A stretch of DNA of 64,000 bases from Paenibacillus sp. NAIST15-1. GTDB taxonomy: Bacteria > Bacillota > Bacilli > Paenibacillales > Paenibacillaceae. The translations under genes and the position numbers were made by a program. Of this stretch, positions 11,671 through 28,947 are shown one piece after another. The DNA is taken from NCBI RefSeq assembly GCF_001894745.1, contig NZ_BBYF01000015.1:62001-126000 (forward strand), written 5' to 3'. Every line of letters begins with the position of its first letter. The stretch's first letter is position 1. Under the pieces are notes generated by a model. It was not told the origin of the DNA and did not search any database. It worked only from the letters and a program-made list of their open reading frames with translations.

Positions 11671-12150
11671 ATGAACATTCAATTGGTATGCGTAGGGAAA
11701 CTGAAGGAGAAATACTTGGTGCAGGGCATTGCGGAGTACAGCAAGCGGCTCGCACCGTATGTGAAATTCCAAGTGTCCGAGGTACCGGACGAGCAGGCAC
11801 CAGAGAAAATGAGTGATGCCGAACTGGAGCAGGTTAAGGATCGTGAGGGCGAGCGTATTCTTGGTCATATTAAGCCGGATGCCCATGTCGTGGCACTGGC
11901 GATTGACGGACAGCTCTGGTCGAGCGAGGACTTAGCCTCGCAGCTCGATCGATTGGCGACGTACGGGACAAGCAATGTAGCCTTTGTGATTGGTGGTTCC
12001 AACGGGCTATCTGATGCTGTTCTCCGCCGTGCCAATTCGAAGCTGTCCTTCGGGCGTATGACGCTGCCGCACCAGTTGATGCGCTTGGTACTCGTGGAGC
12101 AAATTTACCGTGCCGTGAAGATAAACCGAGGTGAACCGTACCATAAGTGA
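11671..12150 (+). CDS. rlmH: 23S rRNA (pseudouridine1915-N3) methyltransferase RlmH
   Basis: 159-residue SPOUT methyltransferase that methylates pseudouridine 1915 in helix 69 of 23S rRNA. It shows the family hallmarks: N-terminal [16 protein letters not shown], the knot region [13 protein letters not shown], the [14 protein letters not shown] motif and the invariant C-terminus RGEPYHK. Length equals the usual 159 residues, so the gene is intact. It is a core gene, also known as orfX in staphylococci, where its last codons are the attachment site of SCC elements. Here too its 3' end is repeated downstream (see the repeat entries), and accessory genes follow directly. Confidence 0.97.
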
Positions 12151-12154
12151 CGGC
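12132..12154 (+). repeat. rlmH 3'-end direct repeat, copy 1 (att-like, within rlmH)
   Basis: The core GAACCGTACCATAAGTGA encodes E-P-Y-H-K-stop at the end of rlmH and is followed by CGGC. It is the reference copy for three further copies downstream. Immediately after it lies a 19-base near-perfect dyad (12151-12169; CGGCGAAAA and its complement), comparable in position to the inverted repeat beside the SCC attachment site of staphylococci. Confidence 0.7.
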
Positions 12155-12305
12155 GAAAAATTTTCGCCGGAGATGGAACAATTGGATGCAGCCGAAACCT
12201 TTGCTGCTCCCTCGTTCCGATAAAATTCATTCTTGCTTTCAAACAATCCCTCTACTATTTCATCCAGATGGGCCAATAGAACGTGCTTTCCCTTATGAAG
12301 AGCGT

Positions 12306-12527
12306 ATGGGAACATGGAGTGCTGAGGTTTTTGGTAATGACACCTCGTGTGAGATCAAGGAATATTTCTATGAGAAGTACAATCGGGGTTCCGAAGTTAC
12401 TCAAATTGTAAGTATGTACACCCAACGCTTACTATCTACAGTTGGCATTGGAGTTCAATACAATCTTGCTTATCCTCAGTTCACGATCTCTATGAAAAAG
12501 GGCATTGCTACACTGGAAGCAAAATGA
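12306..12527 (+). pseudogene. DUF4259-like fragment
   Basis: Reading from the ATG at 12306, the product starts MGTWSAEVFGNDTSCEI and continues with an acidic/aromatic helix. This resembles the N-terminus of DUF4259 proteins (typically MGTWG...FxNDxAxD), small proteins often found in immunity-gene clusters. After about 45 residues the similarity fades and the frame ends early at about 73 residues, compared with roughly 120-140 for the family, so a truncation or frameshift is likely. The open frame extends back to 12147 through sequence with no coding character. The ribosome binding site is poor. The call rests on the N-terminal motif only. Confidence 0.45.
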
Positions 12528-12641
12528 AGGCCTATACAGTGAAAAAATTTCTAAGGAAACGATTACTAGATTATATAGCTTAATAGTCCTCAACAAGTAG
12601 CTGTATATATTAGTAACTTAAGATATAAAGGGGGATTTATT

Positions 12642-13130
12642 ATGAATATTGTTGTTGCGGAACATTGGAATCTTGAAAAGCATGAACTGCCCGGCATTAA
12701 TAGCATCATCTTTCCAAATGGCACTGTAACAATCTTAAGTTGTTACAGCGCATATAACCCCAACACAAATGAAAGTAAATTTTATTGCTCTCCCTTGTGT
12801 GACACAACCATTGAAAGCATATCAAAGTATAATGTTGAATGTTGGACGATCGTTGATGAATGGGTCAGTATTGATTATCAAGACAGGAAAATCTGTGGCG
12901 GTGATGGTCAAATGGGAAATGAAGGATTTATTGCTTGTACGGATGCTGAAGACCGTTTGGTATGGGGAATATTTTTTGAAAATTCAAACCCTATAAAAAG
13001 CTTAGAAATTAAAGATAAAATCCTAATCGCTATTAATGAGCATACCGAATTACAAATTGAAATCAACTTAGAAAACCTCACCCAAATTAAAATGACTTCC
13101 ATTAAACCCAAAAACGAGCCAACTAATTGA
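12642..13130 (+). CDS. Uncharacterised 162-aa protein
   Basis: A well-formed AAAGGGGG site precedes the ATG at 12642. The protein is acidic and cytoplasmic, with no signal peptide or membrane helix. It is rich in Asn, Ile and Glu, with three Cys in the first half and WTIVDEWVSIDYQDRKICGG in the middle. I recognise no domain. Its A+T-rich composition differs from the rlmH side. It sits in the accessory region behind rlmH beside the DUF4259 fragment, and its size would suit a small immunity-type protein; that is inference from context only. Confidence 0.6.
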   Translation: MNIVVAEHWNLEKHELPGINSIIFPNGTVTILSCYSAYNPNTNESKFYCSPLCDTTIESISKYNVECWTIVDEWVSIDYQDRKICGGDGQMGNEGFIACTDAEDRLVWGIFFENSNPIKSLEIKDKILIAINEHTELQIEINLENLTQIKMTSIKPKNEPTN

Positions 13131-13316
13131 TGAAACAAATACCAAGCACGAAATTTCCTTTGAACAACAAACTCGCGTAATTCCAAGTAGGTATTTCTAT
13201 TTAATAGACATAAAGATGTCTCTATCGTCCGTTTTTCTGCTATATTAACTGTGGTAAATTATGGAGAGTGTTTATTTAAATGTCTTAGAAGAAAATGACT
13301 AGGGGAGAAATACTTC

Positions 13317-16300
13317 TTGGAAACTCACTCATCCAAATATCAAATGAAAAAGAGCTATATTATATTATTGCTAGTGTTCATATTATTTGTTTTAACCGGT
13401 TTGCGCATTTTATGGATGGAAGCGTTTCATGTTCCCAAACAGGCGTCAATTCATAATGGGCAATTCGTTGATTTGCGCAATTGGAATGCAGAAGATGGCA
13501 GCATTCTCTTACTTGATGGGGAATGGGAGTTTTATCCCTCGCAATGGTTGATAGATGGTAGTCGGCAACAATTGTTAGGCGATAATGCGCCAATGCATAT
13601 TCAGGTACCGGGAGGATGGAATGAAGCTTTGCATGCTGACAAGCCATCTCCATACGGATATGGCTCTTATCGTTTGCGTCTTTATGTAGACCCTGCAAAG
13701 CATCCTAATTATAGTATTCGTGTACCCAGCGTACGCACTGCATCAGAATTATATGTAAACGGTCGCTTGCTTATTAAATCTGGACAGGTGGCGACAACAA
13801 AGGATGAATATATTTCGAAGGACCTACCTTATTCTACAGCCTTTACAGCAGATGACAACGGTGTAATCGAAATCGTCATTCAGGCGGCGAATTATGTGGA
13901 TAGTCGAAGCGGGGGCATTGTCCGATCCATTAAATTTGGTTCAGAAGAAGCTATAGCCAAAGAGACGAATGCTTCCGTTTTTATGCAGTTTTTGGCAGCG
14001 ATTATATTTATTATGCATGCTGTCTATGCACTTATTTTGTATGTACTAGGAAATAAGGAAAAGAAGCTGCTTTATTTCAGTTTGCTTGCATTATGTGTAA
14101 CGATCACGAGTGTCTTTAGTACGGATGAGAAGTTGTTCCATCAATTATTTTATATTGGAAGTAATTGGGATTTTAGGCTGACTAATATTGCTTTCGTTAT
14201 TGCAGCCTATGCTTTGCTCCAGTGTATGAATCATCGCGAGCTTCCATATTGGCGTAGGATGTACCCTATCTATAAAGTAATGAATCTAGGGACTGCCGGC
14301 ATCACGTTGTTTTTAGATCCACCTCAAGTGATTATGCTCTTTCCGGTTTATTATTTATTAGTTGTTGTTGCTGGAGTTATCACGTTAATTACAATGTTTA
14401 AAAAAGTAATCAAAGATTTAAAGAGCAATCTTTTACTGCTTTTCTCTTTTCTAGCGTTGGTGAACCATTCTCTTTGGTCGTTAATCTTGCTGAATAGCGG
14501 TTTGAGTCTTGTCTACTATCCGTTCGATATGATTATTGCGATGGGTTGTTTAGCCTCTGAATGGTTTAAGGGTTACTTTATCATGCATGCGAACACCAAA
14601 GAGCTTGCTGCAACCTTGCAAAGAATGAATGACCATAAGGATCAATTTCTGGCAAACACTTCACATGAATTTAAAAATCCGCTGCATACCATGCTTAACA
14701 TGTCACAATCCGTTTTAAAAAGGGAACAGCATTTATTGCAGGAACGGAGTATCAAGGAGCTTGAAACGGTTTTATCTGTAGGACGTCGGTTGTCATGGAT
14801 ATTAAACGACTTGATTGACGTGATGAGTTTACGGGAAGGCAATCCACGTTTACAAAGGAAAGTAATATTTATCCAGCCAATTGTGACTGGAGTAATGGAT
14901 ATGCTGCAATTTAACGCAGAAGTAAAGTCTATCACAATTGCAAATCAGATTTCGGAAGATTTTCCCCCGGTAATTGCGGATGAGAATCGAGTGATCCAAA
15001 TCGTGTTCAATTTACTTCATAATGCTGTGAAATATACGAATGAAGGGACAATTTCGATACAAGCTTTTGCCAAAGGCGGCAGAGCGTATATTGTGATTGC
15101 CGATACGGGGATCGGAATGGATGAGCACCTGCTTAAGCGCTTATTCCGTCCGTATGAGCAAGGCAGTACGAGTGTGACGATGATAGAAGGCGGTTTTGGG
15201 TTAGGTTTAAGCATAAGCAAGCAGTTGATTGAGCTTCATGGAGGTACGTTAGATGTATCCTCTGTTGTAGGGGAAGGCTCGAAATTTACATTTTCGTTAA
15301 ATCTGGCGGATGAGGAAGCGGAGGAAGAAAGTGAAGGTTCGAACCGATTGGAACCGTTCGTATTACAATCGATGGCGATGCAAAAAATAGCCTCTACTGA
15401 TGATTTGGACCAAATGGAACTTCCGCTAGCTGCGAAAGGGGCAACACCAACAACTCCATTCCAAATAAATCGTACTCGTCCGCTTGTATTAATCGTCGAT
15501 GATGATCCTGTCAATCTTCAAGTGCTTGAAGCCATAATGCCACCTGACGAATACGAAGTAACGATGGCAACGAGCGGTAAAGAAGCGTTGGCTTTGCTGG
15601 ATACCAAGGACTGGGATCTGGTCATCTCCGACGTTATGATGCCGCAGATGTCCGGTTATGAGCTGACGCGCATGATTCGCGAGCGGTTTACACTCACAGA
15701 GCTTCCCATTCTGCTCCTTACCGCAAGAAGCCAACCGAAAGATATTCAGAGCGGTTTTATAGCGGGGGCAAACGATTATGTGACGAAGCCAGTGGAAGCA
15801 ATAGAAATAAAATCACGGATCGAGGCGTTAATTACGATTAAACAATCCGTTCGGGAACAACTGCGATTAGAAGCTGCATGGCTGCAAGCGCAAATCCAGC
15901 CTCATTTTATATTTAATGCGTTGAATGCTGTAGCAGCTTTAAGCGATATTGATTTGGATAAAATGCGTAATTTGCTCGATGAATTCAGCAATTTTTTGAG
16001 GAATAAATTTAAATTTCAAAATATGGATAGGCTTGTTCCTATCGAAGAGGAATTAAGTCTAGTGCGTTCTTATCTATATATTGAAAAGGCTCGGTTTGAA
16101 GAAAGGTTACAGGTTATTTGGGAGATAGATGGCTACGGGGGCATAAAAGTCCCATTTCTTACGATCCAGCCTCTCGTTGAAAATGCGATAAGACATGGCA
16201 TAATGAAGCGCAATCGTGGAGGAACGATTCTTATTCGGATTTTTGTCTATGAGACGCATGCAGAGATAACCGTTGAAGACGATGGGGATGGAATAGACGA

Positions 16301-16487
16301 GGTTCAATTGCAACGAATATTAGAAAGAAAAGTGGATAGTCGTTCAGGTGTAGGATTGATTAATACGGATCAGCGATTAAAAAGGCACTTCGGAACAGGA
16401 CTTCATATCACAAGTACGTTAGGTACAGGGACAAAGGTAACTTTTCATGTACATAACAGGTTGAATAGCAGGGATAAAGCTAGGTGA
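13317..16487 (+). CDS. Hybrid sensor: 7TM sensor, HisKA kinase, REC, then LytS-type kinase
   Basis: Membrane signalling protein of 1056 residues. Order: TM1 (about 13-31); extracytoplasmic 7TMR-DISM-like domain (about 45-215); seven predicted helices (about 220-420); HisKA with phospho-His in NTSHEFKNPL (about 447); HATPase_c (545-665) with N box, DTGIGMD and GFGLGLSIS; REC domain (720-835) with VDDDP, Asp in VISDVMMP (about 771) and VTKP; then a second, LytS/YesM-type kinase core with QIQPHFIFNALN (about 861) and a second HATPase (950-1050) with DDGDGID and GVGLINT. Two kinase cores around a receiver suggest an internal phosphorelay. AGGGGAG nine bases before the TTG at 13317 favours that start; an ATG at 13344 is the alternative. 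No response regulator gene is adjacent. Confidence 0.85.
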   Translation: METHSSKYQMKKSYIILLLVFILFVLTGLRILWMEAFHVPKQASIHNGQFVDLRNWNAEDGSILLLDGEWEFYPSQWLIDGSRQQLLGDNAPMHIQVPGGWNEALHADKPSPYGYGSYRLRLYVDPAKHPNYSIRVPSVRTASELYVNGRLLIKSGQVATTKDEYISKDLPYSTAFTADDNGVIEIVIQAANYVDSRSGGIVRSIKFGSEEAIAKETNASVFMQFLAAIIFIMHAVYALILYVLGNKEKKLLYFSLLALCVTITSVFSTDEKLFHQLFYIGSNWDFRLTNIAFVIAAYALLQCMNHRELPYWRRMYPIYKVMNLGTAGITLFLDPPQVIMLFPVYYLLVVVAGVITLITMFKKVIKDLKSNLLLLFSFLALVNHSLWSLILLNSGLSLVYYPFDMIIAMGCLASEWFKGYFIMHANTKELAATLQRMNDHKDQFLANTSHEFKNPLHTMLNMSQSVLKREQHLLQERSIKELETVLSVGRRLSWILNDLIDVMSLREGNPRLQRKVIFIQPIVTGVMDMLQFNAEVKSITIANQISEDFPPVIADENRVIQIVFNLLHNAVKYTNEGTISIQAFAKGGRAYIVIADTGIGMDEHLLKRLFRPYEQGSTSVTMIEGGFGLGLSISKQLIELHGGTLDVSSVVGEGSKFTFSLNLADEEAEEESEGSNRLEPFVLQSMAMQKIASTDDLDQMELPLAAKGATPTTPFQINRTRPLVLIVDDDPVNLQVLEAIMPPDEYEVTMATSGKEALALLDTKDWDLVISDVMMPQMSGYELTRMIRERFTLTELPILLLTARSQPKDIQSGFIAGANDYVTKPVEAIEIKSRIEALITIKQSVREQLRLEAAWLQAQIQPHFIFNALNAVAALSDIDLDKMRNLLDEFSNFLRNKFKFQNMDRLVPIEEELSLVRSYLYIEKARFEERLQVIWEIDGYGGIKVPFLTIQPLVENAIRHGIMKRNRGGTILIRIFVYETHAEITVEDDGDGIDEVQLQRILERKVDSRSGVGLINTDQRLKRHFGTGLHITSTLGTGTKVTFHVHNRLNSRDKAR

Positions 16488-16505
16488 TAAATAAGTGATT
16501 GAATG

Positions 16506-16530
16506 AGGAGCATCCTTGGCTGCTCCTTTC
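16506..16530 (+). terminator. Terminator after the hybrid kinase gene
   Basis: Stem AGGAGCA / TGCTCCT with a short loop followed by a pyrimidine run, 18 bases after the stop codon. Confidence 0.6.
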
Positions 16531-16558
16531 TTCATTTTCGCTGATAGACCCGTTAAGC

Positions 16559-16581
16559 TGAACCGTATCATAAGTAACGGC
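16559..16581 (+). repeat. rlmH 3'-end direct repeat, copy 2 (att-like)
   Basis: GAACCGTATCATAAGTAA again encodes E-P-Y-H-K-stop and is followed by CGGC. It matches the end of the real rlmH at 21 of 23 positions; the two differences are synonymous (TAC to TAT) or stop-for-stop (TGA to TAA). There is no rlmH gene in front of it, so this is a stand-alone scrap of the gene end. It shares a further 25 or so bases upstream with copy 3 (CCGTTAAGCTGAA and the stretch before it). Confidence 0.72.
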
Positions 16582-16781
16582 AAGTTTTTATTGTACAACT
16601 CAAATGAAATGGAACAGCTAGGCTATTCGTCAGGAAGCAGAATGGAACTTTTTACCGATATTCCAAGCGATGGGATTCAAATGGTTTGAAGTTGGTTGTA
16701 AACAGTGTTACACTCAAAATCTATATTTTGTAATACACCTAAGAATAGACACTATTTTAGTTATAAAGGAAGGTAATACTT
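16582..16781. other. Intergenic remnant between att-like copy 2 and the ABC-F gene
   Basis: No gene seen. A short ATGGAACA... stretch near 16609 resembles bases just after the end of rlmH (near 12173), suggesting that more of the rlmH flank than the core is duplicated. Confidence 0.35.
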
Positions 16782-18521
16782 GTGATAAAGGTTGATAACT
16801 TATCCTTCTCATTCCCGCAAAAAGAACTATATAAAAACATTTCATTTACGCTTGAAGAGGCACAGCATTGTGCTTTTATAGGAACGAGTGGCAATGGGAA
16901 AAGTACATTAATAGATATACTGATGGATCCAGAAAGATATTTGTTCGAGGGCAAATTAGAAGTTGACCCGACTTGCAAAATTGGGCATGTAAGTCAATTC
17001 TCTCAACAAGACAAAACAAAAGAAACAACAGTTTTTGAATATATAGCGGAAGAATTTATTAAGATACAAAATGAAATAACAGCTATTTGTACAGAGATGG
17101 AAACATCATCGGATATTGATTCATTATTAGAAAAGTATCAATTAGCTTTAGACGCATTTGATTCAATCGGTGGGGATGATTTCGAGAGCAAAATTAATAA
17201 GAAACTAAATCTAGCAAACCTCATGAAGCTAAAAGATGTTAGGGTATCCGATCTGAGTGGTGGGGAATTCAAACTTATTCAAGTGATGAAGGAAATGCTT
17301 AGTAGTCCAGACTTAATGATTATGGACGAACCCGATGTATTTTTAGATTTTGAAAACCTAAATGCGCTCAGAAATCTTATTAATTCTCACAAAGGAATGC
17401 TGCTAGTTGTTACGCACAACCGATATCTATTGAATCATTGTTTCAACAAAATTATACACCTTGAAAATAAAGAGATCCAAGAATTTGATGGGCGATATAT
17501 TGATTATAACTTCTCATTACTTCAGACTAAAATTGAGTTGCAAGAAATCGCAGTCGCTGAACAAGAAGAAATTGAGAGATACGATAACATCATTGATAAT
17601 CTTAGAGCTATCGCGACTGTTAATGCAGATGCATCTAGAGGGAGAGCACTAAAAGCCAGAGTTAAGTTTCAAGAAAGATTGGAAGCACGTAGAATTAAAG
17701 CGCCATTTGTTGATATGAAGCAACCGAATATTCGTTTTGATATGGATCATGAAATGGAAGATACCGTTGTTGTAAATGTTAATAATTATCGCGTTGCCTT
17801 TGATGAGCTGCTGCTAGACCATGTTAACTTTGAGATAAAATCTACGGATAAAGTAGCCATTATCGGTCCAAACGGTACCGGAAAAACGACTTTACTCCGA
17901 GATATCTTTAACAATAATCATGATTCCATTGAAATAAATGCAGATGCTAAAGTGGCTTATCTATCTCAGCTTCAAGGCGAAGTGTTAAAGGATTCTAATA
18001 CAATACTAGAAGAATTCATTGATGCTGGGTTTAGCACTTATGATGAGGTTAGATCGTATATATCACACTATGGCTTTGAAGGAGAAATCGTTAATCAGAA
18101 GATAGCATCTTTATCTGGTGGAGAAAAAAATATGCTTCAATTGGCCAAAGTTGCTGCCAGTAAAGCAAACGTATTGCTTCTAGATGAACCGACAAGCCAT
18201 TTAGACACCTATTCACAAATCGCATTGGAGAAAGCCATTGAAGACTATAAAGGTGCGATTCTCATGATTTCTCATGATTTCTATTCTGTTGTAAATGGTA
18301 TGGATTATGTTTTAATCATCGGCGATAAGACGATAAGAAAAATGAGTATGCGTAAATTTAGACAGATGATTTATGCTAGTCATTTTAATAAAGACTATTT
18401 AGAAGCGGAACAAAATAAAAAAGCAGTTGAAATGAAAATAGAAATGGCTTTAAAAAATACTGATTTTGAATCCGCAAAGATATTGGTTGATGAGCTAGAA
18501 GAGCTGATTAAGTTGCTTTAA
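16782..18521 (+). CDS. ABC-F family ATPase
   Basis: Soluble protein of 579 residues with two ABC ATPase domains and no membrane segment. Domain 1 has Walker A GTSGNGKST, signature LSGGE and a modified Walker B LMIMDEPDVFLD (Asp in place of the usual Thr after DEP). A helical linker (about 240-330) includes the basic SRGRALKARVKFQERL segment. Domain 2 has GPNGTGKT, LSGGEK, LLLDEPTSHLD and an H-loop ISHD. This is the ABC-F layout, whose members act on the ribosome as translation factors or antibiotic-protection proteins. Neither class can be assigned here, though a cassette location fits resistance types. GTG start at 16782 with AAGGAAGG upstream. Confidence 0.88.
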   Translation: MIKVDNLSFSFPQKELYKNISFTLEEAQHCAFIGTSGNGKSTLIDILMDPERYLFEGKLEVDPTCKIGHVSQFSQQDKTKETTVFEYIAEEFIKIQNEITAICTEMETSSDIDSLLEKYQLALDAFDSIGGDDFESKINKKLNLANLMKLKDVRVSDLSGGEFKLIQVMKEMLSSPDLMIMDEPDVFLDFENLNALRNLINSHKGMLLVVTHNRYLLNHCFNKIIHLENKEIQEFDGRYIDYNFSLLQTKIELQEIAVAEQEEIERYDNIIDNLRAIATVNADASRGRALKARVKFQERLEARRIKAPFVDMKQPNIRFDMDHEMEDTVVVNVNNYRVAFDELLLDHVNFEIKSTDKVAIIGPNGTGKTTLLRDIFNNNHDSIEINADAKVAYLSQLQGEVLKDSNTILEEFIDAGFSTYDEVRSYISHYGFEGEIVNQKIASLSGGEKNMLQLAKVAASKANVLLLDEPTSHLDTYSQIALEKAIEDYKGAILMISHDFYSVVNGMDYVLIIGDKTIRKMSMRKFRQMIYASHFNKDYLEAEQNKKAVEMKIEMALKNTDFESAKILVDELEELIKLL

Positions 18522-18544
18522 AATACACCTCTCTTATTGAAAAG

Positions 18545-18569
18545 AAGACCCCTCGAAAAAGGGGTCTTT
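18545..18569 (+). terminator. Terminator after the ABC-F gene
   Basis: Stem AAGACCCC / GGGGTCTT with loop TCGAAAAA, then TTTG, 23 bases after the stop. Confidence 0.8.
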
Positions 18570-18749
18570 GTACTAGGTCAAGAATATATGGCGCGATAAG
18601 CCCAGCGCCTTTTCTGCCTTGAAACTAAGTACCTTACCATCGAACTTCCTGCATGGAATAGACAGGTATGTCCATAATAGATAGAATATAACCTAGACTC
18701 GAGAACATGAGGCGAACCGAAAATAACAATGACACAGAAGAGAGAGTGA

Positions 18750-19112
18750 ATGTTTATGATACAAATAACGATTCCAACACCGGATGTCACGATTTACAAA
18801 CAGATTGATCCTAAATTAAGCCATATATACGGGTTTACGGATTTCATTCAGATTCCTAGAGATAAAGCGGGGATCTTTATGTTCTACAATGATAAGGATG
18901 AACTCCTATTCGTCGGCAAGGCGCGGAAGCTAAGACCTCGGATCAAGAAGCATTTCGAGGATACGGTGTCGGTCATCAAAGATAATCGGGAGGAAGTAAC
19001 CAAGATCGAGGTTTGTTTGGTTGAGGATGCCGTCCATAGAGAAATATACGAGACGTACATTATTAACGAATACAAGGCTAAGTACAATGTAGATAAGGTA
19101 TTATACAAATAA
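18750..19112 (+). CDS. GIY-YIG nuclease-domain protein (120 aa)
   Basis: Single-domain GIY-YIG fold protein similar to the N-terminal nuclease of UvrC. Visible are AGIFMFYNDKDELLFVGKAR (the degenerate GIY...YIG core with Lys/Arg following), RIKKHFED, and the C-terminal EIYETYIINEYKAKYNVDK with the metal-binding Glu and closing Asn. The first motif is GIF and the second LFVG, so catalytic Tyr positions are partly replaced, and activity is uncertain. It could be a nuclease of a mobile element or a repair protein. Purine-rich AGAAGAGAGAG precedes the ATG at 18750. It stands alone between two terminators. Confidence 0.82.
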   Translation: MFMIQITIPTPDVTIYKQIDPKLSHIYGFTDFIQIPRDKAGIFMFYNDKDELLFVGKARKLRPRIKKHFEDTVSVIKDNREEVTKIEVCLVEDAVHREIYETYIINEYKAKYNVDKVLYK

Positions 19113-19162
19113 TAGACAGAGCTCCTATCGCCCAAAGAGCCGTGAAATGATAAGATAACGCA

Positions 19163-19205
19163 AAAATGCCTTTAACCCGCTGAATGTGGATTAAAGGCAT
19201 TTTGA
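19163..19205. terminator. Bidirectional terminator
   Basis: Perfect 13-base stem AAAATGCCTTTAA / TTAAAGGCATTTT between the rightward GIY-YIG gene and the leftward hydrolase gene. The A and T runs on both sides suit termination from either direction. Confidence 0.8.
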
Positions 19206-19317
19206 TATATGTGCCGAGCTACATGTGTAAGTTGGTTGCGGGGGCAGAACTTCAACCCATCGCCAAAGAACGTGGGTCACTGTGGAGAGCATGCGACGTA
19301 AGAATCGATGCTATGGA

Positions 19318-20763
19318 TCAGTTGTTCACCTTGAAATTCACTTCTGGGTACTTGGCGGCCAGAACTTGCAGCGCAGAATCGTCCTTCCCTTTTAAATACC
19401 GATCGAAGAAGGCAACACTGAATTCGTTCACGATGCGGTGATCCCGCCGTGGGTTTTCGTCGCTGAGGCCAAGCAGGGGAGAGAATAACGCAAGATCGGT
19501 GTAGCTTGCATGCTTTGAACCCGGAATAAGGATCGACATCCCTCCGCCTGCCAGAGCATAGCCCGATTTTTGGATATATTCTTTCCTCGGGGCTTCGAAC
19601 GCTTCACGGCTTACCCCACCTAACTGTTTGGCGACATCATCGTAAGAAATCATTACATTGCTGTACGTCTCGTCTGAATACATCATGAAGAAAGGCTTTC
19701 CGAATCCTTTGACCGAAACCGGCGGACCATAAAACCCTCCATCCATACTAAGGGCAGCCTTCACACGCGAATCATTCTGTAACATTTGCACCGTAACGGC
19801 TCCACCGAATGAATGTCCAAGCATGCCGATTCGTTCAAGATCGATTCTGCCTGTAAATCGACCCGCAGTATCCTTCTGATTGAGCTTCTCCACTTGATTG
19901 AGCACAAACGCAGCGTCGCTGGTCCAAAGCGGGATATGCCCCCCATACTGAGCAATCGAAGTCAAGTTAGGGTCGGTCTTACTCACGGCGACTCTTCCGT
20001 CAGGGTAAACGGAGGCAGCAGCTTCGTAGGCATAATCGATAGCGATTACGATATAGCCGTGGCTGGCCAACTCCTCTAGCTGGTACATATTCTGATTGCG
20101 ATACCCGTTCATCCCATGGGAGAAAATCAGAACCGGATACCGGCTCTCCGAGTCCGAGAGCCTAGCCTCCACCAAAGCATGCGTCTTGATCAACCCTAGA
20201 TGGCTTAGCACAAAAGCCGGAAGACCCATCATTTTGCTTGATATGGCTGTCGTCATCTTAGATGCGTTCCGGAGATATGGGCTTCTCTCTTCTCCGACGC
20301 CTTTGGCGGCCGGATACCAAATCTGCGCCATCAGCTCGCGCTTATCAGCAGTGTTATCCGAATATGTTTCTCGCCGCTCATCGTCAACCCAATGATAAAC
20401 CGTCGTTCCGACCGCATAGGGCCCCGTGGGTTGTTCAAACGAGAATACTGGCAGCATCGCAGGTGGCACGACCGAGACCAACAAATATACGGTCAATAGC
20501 ATCGCTTGAACGGTAACAGCAATCCGGCTTTTACTGGCTTTCTTCCGCTTGTTAATGAAGAAATAAGCCATCAATAAGAGTGGCGTCAAGTAGGCCGGAA
20601 CCATCTCCCACCGTCCACCTTCCACGACAATCTGCACAATTACCAAAGTGTAGGCGATCCCTAAAGGGATGAACCATCCCCGTCCGCCTTTCTTGTTCGC
20701 GATTACCGTCCAGTACAACAGGCCAAAATTAACAACGATCAAGCCTATTTCCCAAAACCTCAT
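19318..20763 (-). CDS. Membrane-anchored alpha/beta hydrolase, PAF-acetylhydrolase-like
   Basis: Leftward gene of 481 residues. The first 120 residues hold about four membrane helices. An alpha/beta-hydrolase domain of the PAF-acetylhydrolase/dienelactone type follows: YPVLIFSHGMNGYRNQ (oxyanion loop), the nucleophile elbow GMLGHSFGGA, an Asp region in ALSMDGGFYG, and a late His in GSKHASYTD. The reaction is probably ester or phospholipid acyl hydrolysis outside or at the membrane; the substrate is unknown. ATG at 20763 with GGGAGGGA just upstream on the minus strand. Confidence 0.82.
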   Translation of the reverse strand: MRFWEIGLIVVNFGLLYWTVIANKKGGRGWFIPLGIAYTLVIVQIVVEGGRWEMVPAYLTPLLLMAYFFINKRKKASKSRIAVTVQAMLLTVYLLVSVVPPAMLPVFSFEQPTGPYAVGTTVYHWVDDERRETYSDNTADKRELMAQIWYPAAKGVGEERSPYLRNASKMTTAISSKMMGLPAFVLSHLGLIKTHALVEARLSDSESRYPVLIFSHGMNGYRNQNMYQLEELASHGYIVIAIDYAYEAAASVYPDGRVAVSKTDPNLTSIAQYGGHIPLWTSDAAFVLNQVEKLNQKDTAGRFTGRIDLERIGMLGHSFGGAVTVQMLQNDSRVKAALSMDGGFYGPPVSVKGFGKPFFMMYSDETYSNVMISYDDVAKQLGGVSREAFEAPRKEYIQKSGYALAGGGMSILIPGSKHASYTDLALFSPLLGLSDENPRRDHRIVNEFSVAFFDRYLKGKDDSALQVLAAKYPEVNFKVNN

Positions 20764-20932
20764 GCCGATATCCCTCCCTTTACCACAAATACGAACTTGC
20801 TCCAGATTACAAAAAAATTATAAAGATGAAAGGGGGAATATTATAAATTTTTTATGAATGTCGTGGGCAGACATGGCAAACGCACCGAAATTAAGAGGAA
20901 TGGTTATTTTCGCTCATTTTCAACGTTCCCCA

Positions 20933-21505
20933 TCAAGAACTCTTTGTTGTATAGTAGAACTCCCCTAAGAGATCCCCTATTTCATAACTTCCTGGTGCAA
21001 GTTCTTTTTCAACAAAAGCGTTGATCCCCGACTTGTCGATCTCATACATCACTTCAATTTCTTTAGAAAATAATAGCTTTTCTTGCGAAAGTAAGTTCGA
21101 AAGTGATGGTTGTTGCCTTGGCTTAATTTCTCCCGTATTTAACACTTGCTGAAGGCCCTCAACATAAGACTCCAACGGACGACTACCTACGATTTTGGCT
21201 CCTTTATTCTCTTCATTGATCATGACGATCGTTGGGAAGCCTCGAACACCAAGGCTTCTAGCGAGTCTAAAATCCTCATTCAATAAGGATTGTCCGGATT
21301 GATGTTCAGCATCTTGAATGATCGCTTCTCCATCCAGTCCAAGCTGATTTACGATGTCAATCATGACGGATTCCTTCGCGATATTTCGATTAAATGCGAA
21401 TAAAGCTTCTCGCGATCGTCTTAAGCAATCATAGGCTACTGTATTGCCATGATGTTGCTGAATCACTTTAAATACAATCATCACTGGGGCGAGGCTTTTA
21501 TCCAT
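20933..21505 (-). pseudogene. DsbA/SpxH-like thioredoxin-fold gene lacking its N-terminus
   Basis: 190 codons matching the C-terminal two thirds of the DsbA-like Thioredoxin_5 group (FrnE/SpxH type): LRRSREALFAFNRNIAKESV, then LARSLGVRGFPTIVMI. The family normally opens with a beta strand and a CxxC or related motif about 40-60 residues before the point where this frame begins (MDKSLAPVMIVFKV). No such sequence is found upstream in any minus-strand frame, so the redox site is missing and the gene is probably beheaded. Its 5' edge abuts the small non-coding stretch before the chemoreceptor gene. An active short protein cannot be excluded. Confidence 0.6.
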
Positions 21506-21760: not shown

Positions 21761-23890
21761 ATGTTAGAAAGATTATTAAGTCCATTTACTTCGATTCTAT
21801 CGAGGCTAAAATATGGGCAAAAGTTTATGCTCATCAGTGTACTATTTATTATTCCAATAGTAGTCCTTCTATATAATTGGAACGCGACACAGCAAACTCA
21901 AATAAAATTCATCAAAGGCGAACAAGCTGGGGTTGAGCAGATCAGTGAAATAATGCCCTTCATGCTACAAGTACAACAACAACGTGGGCTTATTAATGGT
22001 TACTTGAATGGAAATAAAGAAGCAAAGAGTGCTATTGAGGCGAAGCTACAAGAAATTGCTCAATTGATTGAAAACATCGAAACAAAATTCCAGAAAAAAA
22101 ACCTGCCCCAGTCATATGAAAAATGGGCTTCTATTCATAGAGAATGGATTGAACTGCGTGATTCTTATGAAAGCTTAAAGGCATCAGATAGTTTTGTTCG
22201 TCATTCAAAACTGGTGGAGCAGATAGAAGAACTTATTGTCAGCAGTGCCGATGAGTCTGAATTATCACTTGATAATGAAATTAATTCATACTATTTGATG
22301 AGGCTGGTCGTTCAGGAACTGCCTGCATTGATCGAAAACTCCGCTTTTATTCGGGGAACTGGCAATGGTATTCTTGCATCGAGAACACTAACGGATGAGT
22401 TGAAAATCCAGCTACTCCTGAGAGAATATGAGAGTAAGACTGCTCTTGTCAGTCTAAATAAATCCCTTTCCAAAATTGCGGAATCTCAGAGTAACATTAA
22501 TGTGAATCTGGTTGAGAAGGGAGGGCAGGTTGCACAAAATATTCAAAACTATCTTGTTTTACTTGAACAAGAAATTATACATAAGCAAGAGATGAGCATG
22601 AATCCTGATACCTTTTTCACTCAAGGGACGGTTGCGATCACAACAGCGGATGAGGTATTCAAACTAGCCATAATGGAATTAGATCATATTCTTCAAGAAC
22701 GTATTGATGACTACACTGCTGAGCGCAATGTAACATTAGTGATCATGGTAGTAGTCTTGCTATTAGTAGTCATATTTTATGTAGCATTCTTTAGGAGTGT
22801 TATGGATACAGTGAGTATCTTAAAGCAAAGAGCGGAGTCGATGGCGAAGGGGGATTTCTCCCAAGACATTGTACTGAATACTAAGGATGAGCTGCAGCTT
22901 GTAGGTGCGGCCTTTAATGAAATGCAAAAATCGATGAATCGAGTGCTTAGCTTAAATCAACAAATTTCCTTAACAACATTTCAATCCTCCCAGCAACTAA
23001 CTGGAATCTCAGATCAATCTATACAGGATATGAAGAAAGTTGCCGATTCTGTGCAGAAAGTATCGGATGGGACAGCTTCACAAAAGAGAACGACAGTGGA
23101 AGCGTCATCTGCAATGAATGAGATGGCGATTGGGATTACACGAGTTGCGGAAGCGGCATCTGAGGTTGCTTCGGTTGCCATTCGCGCAAGTGAAAATGCA
23201 GTAATTGGGAATCAGCAACTGATAGAAACCATGGATCAAATGGAGAGTATTAAGAAGACTCAGGCCGACTCTGCCCAGATTGTAGCTAAGCTTGATGAGC
23301 ATTCAGTACGTATAAGTCAAATTATAGAGTCAATTTTGGAGATTGCAAAGCAAACAAAGCTGCTTGCCTTAAATGCAAATATTGAAGCAGCACGCGCGGG
23401 AGAGCATGGTCGTGGATTTAGCGTAGTTGCACAAGAGATAGGAGAGCTTGCTGAAGAAACATCAAGCTCTGGGAAATCCATTTCTGACCTATTGATTGAT
23501 ATTCGATCTCTTGTTGGAGCAACGGTATCCGCTATGGATTCGATACAAATCGAGACGAATATGGGAATGGAATCTATTGAGCGAACGAAGGAGACCATTG
23601 ATTGCATTCTTAGTGAGGTTAAGCTTGTAAGTGAACAAATTCAGGACGTATCCGCAACCACTGAGGAAATGTCAGCTGGAATGGAGGAAGTGGTGGCTTC
23701 TATTGCAGATGTATCCGATATTTCTCATCGTACATCGAATGAAGCTGAGGTAATGGCTACAGGTACAGCAGAACAACTAGTTTCCGCGGAGAAAATCCAA
23801 ATTTCCGCCAAAGAGTTAAGGGATATGTCACAGCAATTGCAGAATGACTTAAGCAAATTTGTATTGCGCGATGACGTTAAAATAAATTAA
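21761..23890 (+). CDS. Methyl-accepting chemotaxis protein
   Basis: Membrane chemoreceptor of 709 residues. TM1 is at about 24-42. A large extracytoplasmic all-helical sensor region (about 45-320) begins with [20 protein letters not shown], resembling nitrate/nitrite-sensor-type helices, though the ligand is not assigned. TM2 is at about 325-346, HAMP at 347-400, then the signalling coiled coil with the conserved tip [20 protein letters not shown] and [16 protein letters not shown]. Flanking helices carry Glu/Gln-rich methylation-type segments. It would signal through CheW/CheA. GGGGGTAAG lies upstream of the ATG at 21761. The single-gene location in the accessory region suggests an acquired receptor. 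Confidence 0.9.
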
Positions 23891-23904
23891 TTTCGTATGT
23901 AATT

Positions 23905-24017: not shown

Positions 24018-24461
24018 ATGGCAGTCGTAAAAGCCAGGCAACAGGATATTGATATGTTGGCAAGATTGCTTCGAGCTGAAGCTGAGACCGAAGGCGAACA
24101 GGGCATGCTCCTTGTTGGAAATGTTGGCATTAACCGAGTAAGAGCGAATTGCTCTGATTTTAAAGGCATCCGGACAATTCCCCAAATGATCAACCAGCCG
24201 CATGCGTTCGAAGCGTTGCAACATGGTTTGTACTATCAAAACGCAAGAGATAGGGAACGGCGTCTGGCGCGACGGGCTGTGAATGGAGAGCGGAGTTGGC
24301 CAGCTAAATTCTCCCTATGGTATTTCCGTCCAGGAACGTTCGAAAATCCCGGGCCATGCCCGGACACTTGGTATAATCAGCCACTCGCAGGACGATGGAA
24401 GAAGCATTGTTTTTATGAACCTACTGCAGAAGAATGTGAAGAGGTATACAATACGTTTTAA
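24018..24461 (+). CDS. cwlJ: Spore cortex-lytic / cell wall hydrolase, CwlJ-like
   Basis: 147-residue Hydrolase_2 (SleB/CwlJ) catalytic domain without signal peptide or peptidoglycan-binding domain, as in CwlJ. Recognisable features: the catalytic Glu region MLARLLRAEAETEGEQGMLL, VGNVGINRVRANCSDF, AFEALQHGLYY, FSLWYFRPGTF and the closing CFYEPTAEEC. CwlJ degrades cortex peptidoglycan during germination and is deposited in the coat. AAAGAGGTGAGC gives a strong ribosome binding site for the ATG at 24018. Location within the rlmH accessory region suggests it may be an additional copy rather than the core gene. Confidence 0.87.
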   Translation: MAVVKARQQDIDMLARLLRAEAETEGEQGMLLVGNVGINRVRANCSDFKGIRTIPQMINQPHAFEALQHGLYYQNARDRERRLARRAVNGERSWPAKFSLWYFRPGTFENPGPCPDTWYNQPLAGRWKKHCFYEPTAEECEEVYNTF

Positions 24462-24507
24462 TTTTATAGTAGGGCGAGCATGTAGAAGATGTGGAATCGT
24501 TCAAAAG

Positions 24508-25920: not shown

Positions 25921-25990
25921 TTGAAAGGAGATTGTAAACGGGGAACAACTGCTGAACTAAACTGGGGAATTATTGAGAAGGGGATTACCT

Positions 25991-26434
25991 ATGAAGGATG
26001 CGTTAATGGAGAGATTAAAGATTTTTCTTCATCAGGAAGTTAATGAAACACTAGTAGGCATTCCGGCAAGCCAAGAGGAAATTGTTAGTGCGGAGCAACG
26101 GCTGAATGTAAACTTTCATGAGGACTACGTACACTTTATCAAGACGTTTGGAGGAGCATATGCAGGTCTTGCGATACATGCATTCTCTAATGGCTCTAGT
26201 CTCGGCAATGAAACGGTTGTCGATTTGACGTTGGGGTTTCGAGAGCAATTCAAGGGACATCCCTTTGCAGAGGTTTTACGAACCAGTTATGTCATTTCCA
26301 TAGATGGATCCGGCGATCCGATTTTCATGAATCAGACAGGAGAGGTTTTCATCGGGTATCACGATACCGGGGAGATCAAGGTATTAGCCAATTCATTCGA
26401 GGAAATGATCGAAGAGAATTTTTATGAATGGTAA
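25991..26434 (+). CDS. SMI1/KNR4 (SUKH) family protein
   Basis: 147-residue cytoplasmic protein with the SUKH-1 fold: GIPASQEEIVSAEQRLNVNF, then DYVHFIKTFGGAYAG, and the C-terminal half ISIDGSGDPIFMNQTGEVFI with SFEEMIEENF. SUKH proteins commonly act as immunity proteins against contact-dependent or polymorphic toxins; some have other roles. No toxin gene is adjacent, so this may be an orphan immunity gene, as often seen in accessory clusters. AAGGGGA seven bases before the ATG at 25991 decides the start; the open frame begins at 25973 without support. Confidence 0.87.
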   Translation: MKDALMERLKIFLHQEVNETLVGIPASQEEIVSAEQRLNVNFHEDYVHFIKTFGGAYAGLAIHAFSNGSSLGNETVVDLTLGFREQFKGHPFAEVLRTSYVISIDGSGDPIFMNQTGEVFIGYHDTGEIKVLANSFEEMIEENFYEW

Positions 26435-26467
26435 TTTGTTCAATTCGGCAGATTATGCTAATCAAAG

Positions 26468-26516: not shown

Positions 26517-26556
26517 TCTGTTCAAGTCAGACCATTTATCAAGCATTCTGCTCCTG

Positions 26557-26700: not shown

Positions 26701-26702
26701 TA

Positions 26703-27434
26703 CTACCGGTAGTTGGTGATGATCCTAATCAACCGATTATTTTAGGCGCATTTACAGCTGAAAATAAGGATAATGTAGGGGAGGGCCGCCGCCTTCAAAT
26801 TCTAGGAGTCCCCGCACCACTCTTTATTCCAGCTTCAGATATAGCAAGCAATGGGTGGGAGCTGGATTTAGTAAATAAGCAAATCAATGTTATGAGTTTT
26901 GGTCTTATAGACCTTAATCCACGGAGTAAGGGTACGATTATGGCCTCCCACAGCGATCCCGAAGCACTGCCGTCCTTTTCCTTTAACCCATTGCAACAGG
27001 CAACAAATGATCTGGATTTCTTGGTGGATCAATATATTAATATGTACAACATTATTCAAGAGGCTAGAGTAAATAATAGCGGGATAAAAGCTGTGGTGTA
27101 CCCTCCGGAGGCAGTTTTCCAAATACCCGATTAGGCAGAAAAAAAGAAGCAGCTTAGTGATTTCGTAAGAGCATCGTATTCAAATTTCTATCATTATGGC
27201 GGGCAGTGCAAGATGGGGAAAAGCGTTCAAGATGGAGTTGTCAACGGACAGCTGGATGTATTCGGTACAACCAATCTTAAAGTCGCTGATCTTTCCATCG
27301 CACCTATTTTACCGGACGGCAATACTAGCCAAGCAGCTCAAATGATAGGATTAAATGCCGTACGCTTTATTCAACATAATTCTTGTTCTTACGTGCTGGA
27401 TGATGATGATTTTGAGGACGAATTAGAAGATTAA
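26703..27434 (+). pseudogene. GMC oxidoreductase C-terminal fragment with internal stop
   Basis: One continuous frame from about 26703 to 27434 matches the C-terminal substrate/FAD region of glucose-methanol-choline oxidoreductases: NPRSKGTIMASHSDPEALPS, then a helix, then YHYGGQCKMGKSVQDGVV and TTNLKVADLSIAPILPDGNT followed by SQAAQMIGLNAVRFI. An in-frame TAG at 27132-27134 splits it, and the whole N-terminal FAD-binding half is missing (family members are about 500-600 residues). The TAG could be a genuine nonsense mutation. The product ends in an acidic tail DDDDFEDELED. The gene is dead by truncation alone. The left edge is fused to the chemoreceptor scrap. Confidence 0.82.
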
Positions 27435-27470
27435 TAGGTGTAATGCCAGACTGGAATGGACCCAAATCGG

Positions 27471-27498
27471 AAAGAGCTGGAGGCGCCAGCTCTTTTTT
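27471..27498 (+). terminator. Terminator after the GMC remnant
   Basis: Stem AAAGAGCTGG / CCAGCTCTTT, loop AGGCG, then TTTT. It is immediately followed by the third att-like repeat. Confidence 0.85.
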
Positions 27499-27523
27499 AT
27501 TTCCGCCGATATGACCGTTAAGC

Positions 27524-27545
27524 TGAAGCGTATCTAAGTGGCGGC
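27524..27545 (+). repeat. rlmH 3'-end direct repeat, copy 3 (att-like, degenerate)
   Basis: GAAGCGTATCTAAGTGG matches the rlmH end with one base lost from the His codon and a changed stop. Restoring one A would give E-A-Y-H-K, the version seen in staphylococcal rlmH. The preceding CCGATATGACCGTTAAGCT stretch is nearly the same as the one before copy 2, so the two share about 45 bases. Confidence 0.62.
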
Positions 27546-27689
27546 GGGAAATTTTATTTGTGTTAATTGCTTTTGTTGGGAATAGAAGGCTGGTTGTCCC
27601 TCTATAAGGTATGAGCTAGGCGACTTGGAAGCATGTTGTTCAGTCGATGGCCTTGAACAGACAAATTGGATAATGGGGGAGGATAAGAA

Positions 27690-27871
27690 ATGAGCTTTAC
27701 GGTAGACCAGATAGTCCATAAAATAGATAAGCCCTTCCTTGGGACGATATTATTGTTGAAGGTGTATGTATTCTAAATAAAACCGGATATTTCAATCATG
27801 TAAAATGGGTGCTGAAAATCGATGACAAAGGAATACGGTACATAAGTAATATTTTAGAGAAAGGATGGTAA
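27690..27871 (+). pseudogene. Frameshifted small gene of unknown function
   Basis: GGGGGAGG seven bases before the ATG at 27690 starts a frame MSFTVDQIVHKIDKPF. Near 27736 the frame must shift to continue as PWDDIIVEGVCILNKTGYFN and onward to EKGW-stop at 27871; unshifted it ends after 28 codons. The two halves together would give about 60 residues and look like one protein by composition and junction. I recognise no family. It is either a recently broken gene or a sequencing indel. Confidence 0.45.
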
Positions 27872-27984
27872 TAGTCGTAGGGTGTGATCTATGCCCGGTA
27901 TTCCTATGAAAAAAATAATCGTTCATGAATGACACCCCTATAATGATGTAAATTTTATCCTTGCCATGCTTCAGGTTGAGCTTG

Positions 27985-28194
27985 TTATTGTACATGCCTA
28001 TGCTTCAATAGCACTGAAATATAGAAAGTTTCTTTTTCTACAATTAGCTCTGTATGAACTACATTATAATTGATTCCTTCCATTGTTATCCCGTTTACTA
28101 ATTTTGTGAGACGAAGAAATTCTCCAATTTCGGAAACATAGACATCCGCAGTTGAGCTATCGGGGAATATGCATTGCACTCTAATAGGACTCAT
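27985..28194 (-). CDS. Uncharacterised 69-aa protein
   Basis: Leftward frame with AAGGAAGGA directly before the ATG at 28194. The product is MSPIRVQCIFPDSSTADVYV, followed by an alternating strand/helix pattern (EIGEFLRLTKLVNGI, HTELIVEKETFYISVLL), consistent with a small beta-rich cytoplasmic protein. No domain recognised. It diverges from the XRE regulator and shares an A+T-rich promoter region with it. Confidence 0.5.
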   Translation of the reverse strand: MSPIRVQCIFPDSSTADVYVSEIGEFLRLTKLVNGITMEGINYNVVHTELIVEKETFYISVLLKHRHVQ

Positions 28195-28340
28195 TCCTTC
28201 CTTGTTTATATATCATATATCCGATTCGATACGGGGACTTGTTGAGATGATTAAGTTTGTAAAGTTCTAAGTAGCGTTTCTTATTATGCCTTTTAGTTTA
28301 TTTTTTTTAAAACAGGGCAATCTTATTATATCAAAAATAA

Positions 28341-28380
28341 ATCCCTATAGGGTATATATTAATAAAATAAACCCTATAGT
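28341..28380. promoter_or_regulatory. Paired CCCTATAG operator-like elements
   Basis: A perfect palindrome CCCTATAGGG at 28343-28352 and a half-conserved copy ACCCTATAGTA at 28371-28381, 29 bases apart (close to three helical turns), in A+T-rich DNA 50-90 bases before the XRE gene. Probably the binding sites of that regulator. Confidence 0.45.
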
Positions 28381-28430
28381 ATCTTGGAGTGTGCAAATGG
28401 CTGGTCTATGGTTTGCTTAGGGTGATTGCT

Positions 28431-28772
28431 GTGAGTGATTTTATGAAGATGGTAGGGGAAGGCATTCGGCACTTTCGAAAACTACGCGGACTAAGCCAGG
28501 AGGAACTTGCAAGCAAGGCTGAGCTACACGAGACTTATATTGGCAAGTTGGAACGTTCTGAAAAGGTATGTTCCGTCGTAGTACTGGCTAGAATTACGAG
28601 TGCGCTCAACCTCTCGATGGTGGAGTTCTTTAGTTACATCCAACCTGTGAGTGGAGAGGGGAACGATTCTACACTTGCAGAAATTGTGGATAGGCTCCGA
28701 ATCAGAAGTCTAAATGAGCAAAAGAGGATATTGAAGGTCATTGACGCTATGTTGGACGATCAGTTGGATTAA
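28431..28772 (+). CDS. XRE-family transcriptional regulator
   Basis: 113-residue DNA-binding protein. The helix-turn-helix lies at about 8-65: IRHFRKLRGLSQEELASKAE, HETYIGKLERSEK, VLARITSALNL. The C-terminal 45 residues are a charged helix (LAEIVDRLRIRSLNEQKRIL) likely for dimerisation. The GTG at 28431, preceded by AGGGTGAT, fits better than the upstream ATG at 28389, whose extra residues look non-coding. It stands alone between a divergent small gene and a terminator, with two palindromic elements upstream that suggest autoregulation. Confidence 0.85.
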   Translation: MSDFMKMVGEGIRHFRKLRGLSQEELASKAELHETYIGKLERSEKVCSVVVLARITSALNLSMVEFFSYIQPVSGEGNDSTLAEIVDRLRIRSLNEQKRILKVIDAMLDDQLD

Positions 28773-28875
28773 GAGGGAAAATCCTAATACCGCTGAAGTT
28801 TGGATTAATGCCTTGAGTTGGTGAATTGTGAATTTACACGGTTGCAATTTTCCATCCTGAACTCTGTCAACTATA

Positions 28876-28905
28876 AAGGGTACCCAAATGGGTGCCCTTA
28901 TATTT
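28876..28905 (+). terminator. Terminator after the XRE gene
   Basis: Stem AAGGGTACCC / GGGTGCCCTT with loop AAAT, then ATATTT. Confidence 0.6.
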
Positions 28906-28924
28906 CGTACTATAGATATTACGT

Positions 28925-28947
28925 AGAACCGTATAACAAGTAGGTGG
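28925..28947 (+). repeat. rlmH 3'-end direct repeat, copy 4 (candidate)
   Basis: GAACCGTATAACAAGTAG reads E-P-Y-N-K-stop, i.e. the RlmH C-terminus with one His to Asn change. It agrees with copy 2 at 16 of 23 positions. It lies between the XRE terminator and the thioredoxin-like gene and would mark the right end of the accessory region. It is weaker than copies 2 and 3. Confidence 0.4.

Follow-up and report, generated by a model that had tools for sequence, protein, structure and literature searches.

Probable SCC-like cassette arrays at the 3′ end of rlmH in Paenibacillus

The repeated rlmH tail

The window, by which we mean the whole 64,000-nucleotide stretch of DNA analysed here, covers positions 62,001 to 126,000 (forward strand) of contig NZ_BBYF01000015.1 from Paenibacillus sp. 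NAIST15-1 (assembly GCF_001894745.1). It belongs to contig C15 of genome G000, which lies near Paenibacillus alvei by RlmH similarity (G and L numbers are our handles for genomes and loci). It contains an intact rlmH gene, the last codons of which recur downstream, in one orientation, in the manner of the staphylococcal cassette chromosome (SCC) elements. Our subject is these repeats, the DNA between them and their counterparts in relatives. The gene and its repeats are as follows.

11671..12150, + strand: rlmH, intact (Pfam PF02590, E 4e-59); its 3′ end is the putative integration site
12133..12150, + strand: copy 1, rlmH 3′ end (stop codon TGA) and junction core for the first cassette; 2 mismatches to GAACCGTATCATAAGTAA
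16560..16577, + strand: copy 2, GAACCGTATCATAAGTAA exact (pattern search; profile score 48.6)
27525..27541, + strand: copy 3, one core base deleted (GAAGCGTATC-TAAGTGG; read from the sequence)
28926..28943, + strand: copy 4, GAACCGTATAACAAGTAG, 3 mismatches; orthologous site in P. alvei DSM 29 (G002, 16190)
55929..55946, + strand: weak fifth site, followed by TGGTAAAG; profile score 13.1

An earlier note on this DNA had claimed that tail repeats follow rlmH in one orientation, and they are real. At ≤3 mismatches GAACCGTATCATAAGTAA is found in the window at 12133, 16560 and 28926, all on the + strand, where shuffles predict 0.03 occurrences. Copy 3, at 27525, requires a one-base gap, its ungapped profile score being just 1.8; it has in common with copy 2 the 10 preceding nucleotides (CCGTTAAGCT) and the trailing CGGC. 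The note had also read copies 2 and 4 as E-P-Y-(H/N)-K and a stop, and indeed copy 2 encodes EPYHK* and copy 4 EPYNK*. The att core TATCATAA is exact in copy 2, takes the form TACCATAA in copy 1 and is degenerate in copies 3 and 4. The score of the weak site at 55929 is exceeded at a single one of 1.5 million control positions upstream.

Does TGGTAAAG, which follows that weak site, represent a native flank that marks the right border of the array? The proteins encoded after such sites are not common between loci, and TGGTAAAG-like sequence also stands 3′ of rlmH in other families of the Bacilli. A TGGTAAARC-type sequence lies 3′ of the rlmH stop in L237, L252, L253, L272, L287, L051, L072 and L092, which represent several families of the Bacilli, and likewise after some internal sites and after the weak site 55929.

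Across the whole genome GARCCKTAYCAYAARTRR matches five times at ≤1 mismatch, three of these in the array of the window; a reversed control pattern gives four matches in total. One of the other two matches, with what by eye appears to be a class B right arm, occurs on the minus strand of another contig (G000 C3:88461-88478, L003), away from rlmH; it is possibly a secondary insertion or the end of a rearranged array. The expectation that sites would lie only downstream of rlmH was thus borne out as to clustering, which is strong, while exclusivity is perhaps lacking, given C3:88461.

Sites downstream of rlmH in relatives

How are such sites distributed in relatives? Our main sample comprised 81 rlmH loci, namely the window and the 80 named GTDB records with the most similar RlmH. 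The stretch 3′ of rlmH measured about 10 kb in most, much less in a few, and 52 kb in the window. Tolerating ≤2 mismatches on both strands, up- and downstream, we counted 108 degenerate sites downstream of rlmH on its own strand and 4 on the opposite strand, whereas the 809 kb upstream contained none on either strand. At least one downstream site was present in 55 of the 81 loci. A second count, in which the end of each host's own rlmH served as the pattern at ≤4 mismatches (80 loci), gave 96 and 4 downstream (same and other strand) and 2 and 3 upstream. Neighbouring sites within the first 10 kb are spaced with quartiles of 1.4, 2.3 and 4.0 kb (n = 133), a short stretch that under-counts long elements.

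A breadth sample took 20 kb 3′ of rlmH in 20 loci of Paenibacillaceae and in 40 of other families of the Bacilli; two of the latter stretches were just 2.7 and 6.2 kb, and the rlmH end was off-pattern in 3 of the 60 loci. Sites were found in 14 of the 20 Paenibacillaceae loci (36 on the rlmH strand, 3 opposite, in 399 kb) and in 15 of the 40 others (23 and 3, in 767 kb).

Might the repeats be partial duplications of rlmH, or the work of insertion sequences or transposons that copied its end? The readable EPY(H/N)K and stop of copies 2 and 4 are in keeping with duplication. Against it, identity to rlmH ends at the 18-mer: the 10 nucleotides 5′ of the core match the host rlmH at 3.2 positions of 10, where 2.5 are expected by chance (n = 105), and no longer fragments of rlmH stand upstream of the internal copies. 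Because identity ends there, and because they have conserved arms of their own (see below), the internal copies behave as element-borne attachment cores and not, as the earlier note had supposed, as leftover ends of rlmH genes. Nor did we recognize by eye any transposase among the listed clusters of open reading frames (ORFs) found in at least 4 loci, the one recombinase cluster being that of a large serine recombinase (LSR). We reject duplication of rlmH, and regard copying of its end by either route as scarcely credible.

The DNA between the copies

Segments and genes between and beside the copies, with the arms and hairpins that adjoin them, are listed here.

12151..12200, + strand: left end of the first cassette, CGGCGAAAAATTTTCGCCGGAGATGGAACAA...; near-identical sequence 3′ of internal site 2478 in G014
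12151..16577, + strand: segment 1, 4.4 kb; shared block 12296-13159 and hybrid histidine kinase 13317-16487
16505..16528, + strand: terminator-like hairpin abutting the copy 2 right arm (hairpin scan)
16535..16559, + strand: right arm of class A, TTTTCGCTGATAGACCCGTTAAGCT; inverted match to the left arm of segment 1, 8/10
16578..18545, + strand: ABC-F ATPase cassette, left end CGGCAAGTTTTTATTGTACAACTC; coding sequence 16782-18521
18585..19221, + strand: block with a GIY-YIG domain gene; 95% identical to G012, there 3′ of a site
19318..20763, − strand: alpha/beta hydrolase, PAF-AH like (profile search)
20933..21505, − strand: DsbA-like protein, second half of the profile only (positions 88-185 of 186; profile search)
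21761..23890, + strand: methyl-accepting chemotaxis protein (profile search)
24018..24461, + strand: cell wall hydrolase domain protein (profile search)
25973..26434, + strand: SUKH (SMI1/KNR4) immunity-type protein (profile search)
27473..27493, + strand: hairpin then T-run, before copy 3 (read from the sequence; not in the hairpin scan)
27542..27946, + strand: mini-insert of ~404 bp with a degenerate site at its end; no counterpart there in P. alvei DSM 29
28876..28899, + strand: terminator-like hairpin before copy 4 (hairpin scan)

The earlier note had divided this DNA into segments of about 4.4, 11 and 1.4 kb. The 11-kb segment is a composite rather than a single unit, its outer arms matching as inverted sequences at 5/10 positions as compared with 8/10 for segment 1. 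The DsbA-like gene at 20933..21505 sits near the start of a block common to the window and P. alvei DSM 29.

DNA matching the ABC-F gene (16782-18521) over at least 500 bp lies downstream of rlmH in 18 of 85 other loci. We do not claim this gene as a named resistance determinant: its best NCBIfam model, ribosomal protection-like ABC-F, scores 296.5 bits, below the cut-off of 380. Matches from PADLOC among the array genes were also set aside, since they look like generic ATPase and helix-turn-helix (HTH) matches.

Just right of copy 4, a PyrR binding site RNA at 29456-29607 (Rfam RF00515, 59.7 bits) stands upstream of a cytosine/purine permease gene and an amidohydrolase gene. Farther on, at 59679-60893, is a gene with HTH and Peptidase_M78 (ImmA/IrrE-type) domains, 47 kb 3′ of rlmH in the window and ~0.9 kb 3′ of it in G003. 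The stretch between rlmH and this gene is a plastic zone.

Arms, stop codon and terminators

The sites are flanked by arms, located ~25 nucleotides before the core (right arm) and directly after it (left arm). With motifs picked after inspection of the sites, the left-arm motif is present at 127 of 204 sites, against 1.9% of random places, and the right-arm motif at 69 of 119, against 2.5%.

Do the two arms of one element correspond? To the extent that an element can be delimited by its recombinase, they do. Fifteen entries have an LSR or a remnant of one near rlmH, corresponding to 14 loci (L060 and G163 are identical). A far site with a profile score of at least 20 was found in 12 of the 15; there was none for P. 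pinistramenti, none in the 10 kb examined of L060, and the rlmH end of G211 was unrecognised. In these 12 elements the left arm is an inverted match of the right arm, and with the full right flank none of 2000 permutations does as well. With a narrower slice of the flank, 134 of 2000 do. Six of the 12 are of one arm class; when a single element per class is kept, the true pairing alone of 720 reaches its score.

Arms are also alike within clades of LSRs. Most tandem-pair LSRs have GGCGAAAT-like arms, the 556-aa type has GGCAAGTTTTT in all five loci that possess a site, and the 520- to 698-aa type has GGTAAAATA in two loci.

If an insertion joins the cassette to rlmH within these codons, from which partner does the stop codon come? 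An arm could be assigned to a class at 52 of 85 rlmH ends and at 52 of 119 internal sites, the others being dropped. Among rlmH ends, the left arm GGCGA accompanies TAG in 27 of 28 cases and CGGCGA accompanies TGA in 10 of 11; at internal sites the figures are 16 of 17 and 11 of 14. Core positions 17 and 18 show a strong link to the class of the left arm (0 of 300 shuffles as extreme in both the rlmH and the internal set), and positions 15 (1 and 41 of 300) and 9 (7 and 18 of 300) a weak one. The class of the right arm, at 56 internal sites, is linked instead to positions −4 and −2 (0 of 300) and −1 (4 of 300), and not to the stop codon. Since the stop codon covaries with the left arm, the crossover lies inside the common core, 5′ of the stop; it can be placed no more finely than the core because most core positions hardly vary. 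It appears from these sequences that the stop codon of rlmH is supplied by the element and that each insertion swaps it. Kinship among hosts could inflate the figures for rlmH ends, yet the internal sites show the same link.

A terminator-like hairpin stands 5′ of the right arm at 24 of 119 sites, against 1.5% of random places. For 19 of these hairpins the 3′ end falls between −31 and −24. As controls, such hairpins occur just downstream of 4 of the 119 sites and after 42 of 523 gene stops. In the window the scan found them at copies 2 and 4, and reading the sequence adds copy 3. Cassettes thus seem to be terminator-capped, which would insulate neighbours from one another, most sites being without a hairpin by this measure.

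Recombinases beside rlmH

The earlier note had proposed a search for LSRs beside rlmH in relatives, and CcrB-like ones are present there. Four rlmH-adjacent LSRs, from L066, L071 and L060, have CcrB as their best NCBIfam model (319–438 bits), followed by CcrC and, weakly, by CcrA. All four fall below the NCBIfam equivalog cut-offs (900 for CcrB), which the control CcrA and CcrB of Staphylococcus epidermidis pass, CcrB with 1137. The 549-aa LSR of L066 is 46% identical to S. epidermidis CcrB over 418 residues. In the one pair scored, that of L066, CcrB is a better fit than CcrA for each of the two partners. A DUF1643 protein (PF07799) is encoded near this pair at 10924-11496; annotation places a member of this family next to ccr in the S. 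epidermidis stretch L196 as well.

We then scored 295 Paenibacillaceae genomes against the LSR of L071, with at most four candidates per genome, so that the counts are lower bounds. Strong matches (at least 250 bits) number at least 74. Thirty-one of them could be placed relative to rlmH and 43 could not. Of the placed ones, 26 are at most 40 kb downstream of rlmH (24 convergent with it), the remaining 5 are on other contigs, and none lies far away on the same contig. Weaker matches of 150–250 bits (68 among the matches listed) are scattered: 5 lie near rlmH and 7 far from it, 24 are on other contigs, and 32 could not be placed. There are 15 tandem pairs with both genes at least 1300 nucleotides long, five other neighbouring rows being split or truncated genes. 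In a tree the partners of the pairs fall into two clades, the placement of CcrA and CcrB being unsure on account of long branches.

Could another recombinase, such as the host XerCD, a tyrosine integrase or an IntI-like enzyme, move the cassettes? Few arrays have an LSR close by: in the 20 kb 3′ of rlmH a CcrB-like one (E ≤1e-25) occurs in 0 of 20 Paenibacillaceae loci and 2 of 40 loci of other Bacilli, which would suit such an enzyme. Serine integrases, on the other hand, use extended att sites, and the arms before and after the core resemble a site of that kind. The LSR-associated elements have matched arms, alike within LSR clades, and a motif search for tyrosine recombinases among the ORFs of the 81 downstream regions, made without a profile search, gave one doubtful ORF. 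We consider a different enzyme improbable.

Cassettes shared between species

If cassettes move, the same unit should be met at different positions. The left end CGGCGAAAAATTTTCGCCGGAGATGGAACAA adjoins rlmH in the window and an internal site in G014. Conversely, copy 2 and the left end of the ABC-F cassette are internal in the window, while their counterpart is directly 3′ of rlmH in G013 (87% identity over 2.0 kb). Directly 3′ of rlmH in G007, G016, G017 and L053 stands a cassette that L062 and G018 have at other places in their arrays, with 93–97% identity. Its L062 copy is predicted to encode a 482-aa protein of the Beta-lactamase family (PF00144; 13760-15208, minus strand), and the PF00144 ORF cluster was found in 7 loci.

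Block 12296-13159 is 96–97% identical to G014 and G017, and block 12479-13131 is 96% identical to G004. Blocks of the window are thus 95–97% identical to species whose rlmH identity is 74–76%. We used only blocks of high identity because conservation of the protein alone can raise the identity of the ABC-F gene. In a comparison of all pairs, 208 of 412 common stretches of at least 500 bp are at least 5 points more identical than rlmH.

P. alvei DSM 29, the RlmH of which is 99% identical to that of the window, provides a counterpart without the mini-insert: the ~404 bp between copy 3 and the degenerate site 27946 are absent from it at that place, and it has one site there. In the 60 kb 3′ of its rlmH nothing matched window positions 12151-20915 over at least 150 bp. 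Gene order between the repeats differs between relatives; the earlier note had named an identical order in all of them as evidence to the contrary.

An old and now static array, the cassettes of which were brought in by LSRs long ago and which has since changed by homologous recombination and deletion alone, with no mobilization in trans, would account for several features: no Ccr-like LSR was seen in G000, segment 2 is composite, two of the copies (3 and 4) are degenerate, and alignment breakpoints fall at sites only weakly. Such an array is less easily reconciled with intact sites, with the junction swaps and with cassette blocks 93–98% identical between species whose rlmH identity is ~74–77%. 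We think it unlikely.

Interpretation

We conclude that the 3′ end of rlmH is very probably the attB of a family of SCC-like cassettes, often recombinase-free, that are moved by Ccr-like LSRs. Integration of this kind at rlmH had been proposed in the earlier note, and same-strand downstream sites, junction swaps, a filled and empty pair and CcrB-like recombinases beside rlmH in relatives speak for it. A circular cassette would bear an attP made of two inverted arms flanking a copy of the rlmH tail core. On recombination within the core, rlmH would retain its last codons and end with the stop codon of the cassette; a fresh copy of the core would arise at the other end of the insert. Every insertion would leave a usable site, whence a tandem pile-up in one orientation. 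Cassettes without a recombinase, those of the window included, might be moved in trans by the LSR of a co-resident element and decay later.

Several observations count against this interpretation. No further site was found in the examined stretch of 26 of the 81 loci, and no decay of sites with distance from rlmH was seen (Spearman −0.11, p 0.20, n 133). Over 141 elements delimited by neighbouring sites the pairing of arms is not significant, 54 of 1000 permutations reaching the observed value, and many segments may for that reason be composites. The P. pinistramenti pair has the left arm CGCAAATTT, unlike other pairs of its clade, and alignment ends coincide with sites at only ~2 times expectation (16 versus 8.4, of 613). 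Profile and protein searches revealed no LSR in the window, the best match in its genome reaching 78.7 bits to a Ccr-like LSR; the absence of a visible ccr-like gene, noted earlier for the window, extends to the genome as a whole at the sensitivity of this search. Because no such recombinase was seen in its genome, the cassettes of the window would be remnants or moved in trans. No LSR that matches their class A right arms was found in the elements of relatives. Finally, while the sites, the arms, the junction swaps, one segment present or absent, the position of LSRs in relatives and the stop-codon link are observed in the sequences, the circular form, the action of the enzyme and mobilization in trans are steps that we infer rather than observe.

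A broader view may be advanced tentatively, as somewhat less probable than its contrary. Throughout the Bacilli, the rlmH 3′ end might serve as an integron-like platform for gene capture, where a few lineages of Ccr-like LSRs shuttle, in trans, terminator-capped, recombinase-free cassettes of a few kilobases, each cassette with an arm class out of several and each insertion rewriting the stop codon of rlmH; large SCC elements and the Enterococcus cassette chromosome (ECC) would then be self-sufficient special cases.

It was through SCC elements that staphylococci acquired methicillin resistance, and to our knowledge the origin of the rlmH cassette system is unsettled. Dense arrays of small cassettes in Paenibacillus, with several LSR lineages and arm classes, would make that origin, the rule of mobilization in trans and the point of crossover testable. 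They would also be a source of candidate serine recombinases, for which attB is known and attP predicted.

Comparison with known systems

The window resembles SCC in insertion at the last codons of rlmH, in same-orientation repeats of the tail, in the TATCATAA core and in tandem composites. The inverted arms are imperfect, as in SCC (8/10 in segment 1 and 5/10 in segment 2 of the window; 0 of 2000 permutations as good for the LSR elements of relatives). The LSRs of relatives fit CcrB best, and P. pinistramenti has a DUF1643 gene such as is found beside staphylococcal ccr. The window differs from SCC in that neither it nor its genome has ccr, the spacing of sites is mostly 1.4–4 kb (quartiles, first 10 kb), and the LSRs of relatives fail the curated Ccr cut-offs (319–438 versus 900 bits for CcrB). 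In having rlmH tail repeats that bound accessory DNA without ccr, the window is like pseudo-SCC, the ccr-less SCC-like elements. One report describes an SCCmec without known ccr (PMC8407400).

A cassette site of this type outside staphylococci had been the claim of the earlier note. The comparisons support its SCC-like character, and such elements were already known from enterococci and from one Paenibacillus. ECC lies at rlmH with ccrAB, and its circles and transfer have been demonstrated (PMC6222049). There, too, are the rlmH 3′ end, the TATCATAA core, inverted repeats in attR and two LSRs; complete ECCs, in contrast, measure 21–78 kb and are defined by ccrAB, whereas the Paenibacillus arrays described here are denser and often recombinase-free. 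Islands at rlmH with Pol-SSB pairs in Bacillota include that of P. pinistramenti, where two LSRs and rlmH repeats in tandem are present (PMC10061031); its record, NZ_VAWG01000004, is our locus L066, in which 20 kb contained no further site of profile score ≥20. That study tabulates one Paenibacillus island; in the parts of it consulted, we met neither arrays across the genus nor classes of arms, a link between arm and stop codon, or terminators.

Within the open-licence literature of PubMed Central, subscription journals being outside this scope, we found no report of genus-wide Paenibacillus rlmH arrays. To that extent the density of the arrays, their recombinase-free cassettes and their arm classes appear new, as do the exchange of stop codons and the terminator caps.

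What, then, do these arrays most resemble in their way of working? Integron gene cassette arrays are tandem rows of recombinase-free cassettes in the same orientation at a fixed site. In the 81 downstream regions, where we ran a motif search and looked over the ORF clusters by eye, no integron integrase was noticed, and the recombinase proposed for the rlmH arrays is of the serine rather than the tyrosine kind. The rlmH arrays are probably not members of that system; they work alike, being tandem, in one orientation and at a fixed site.

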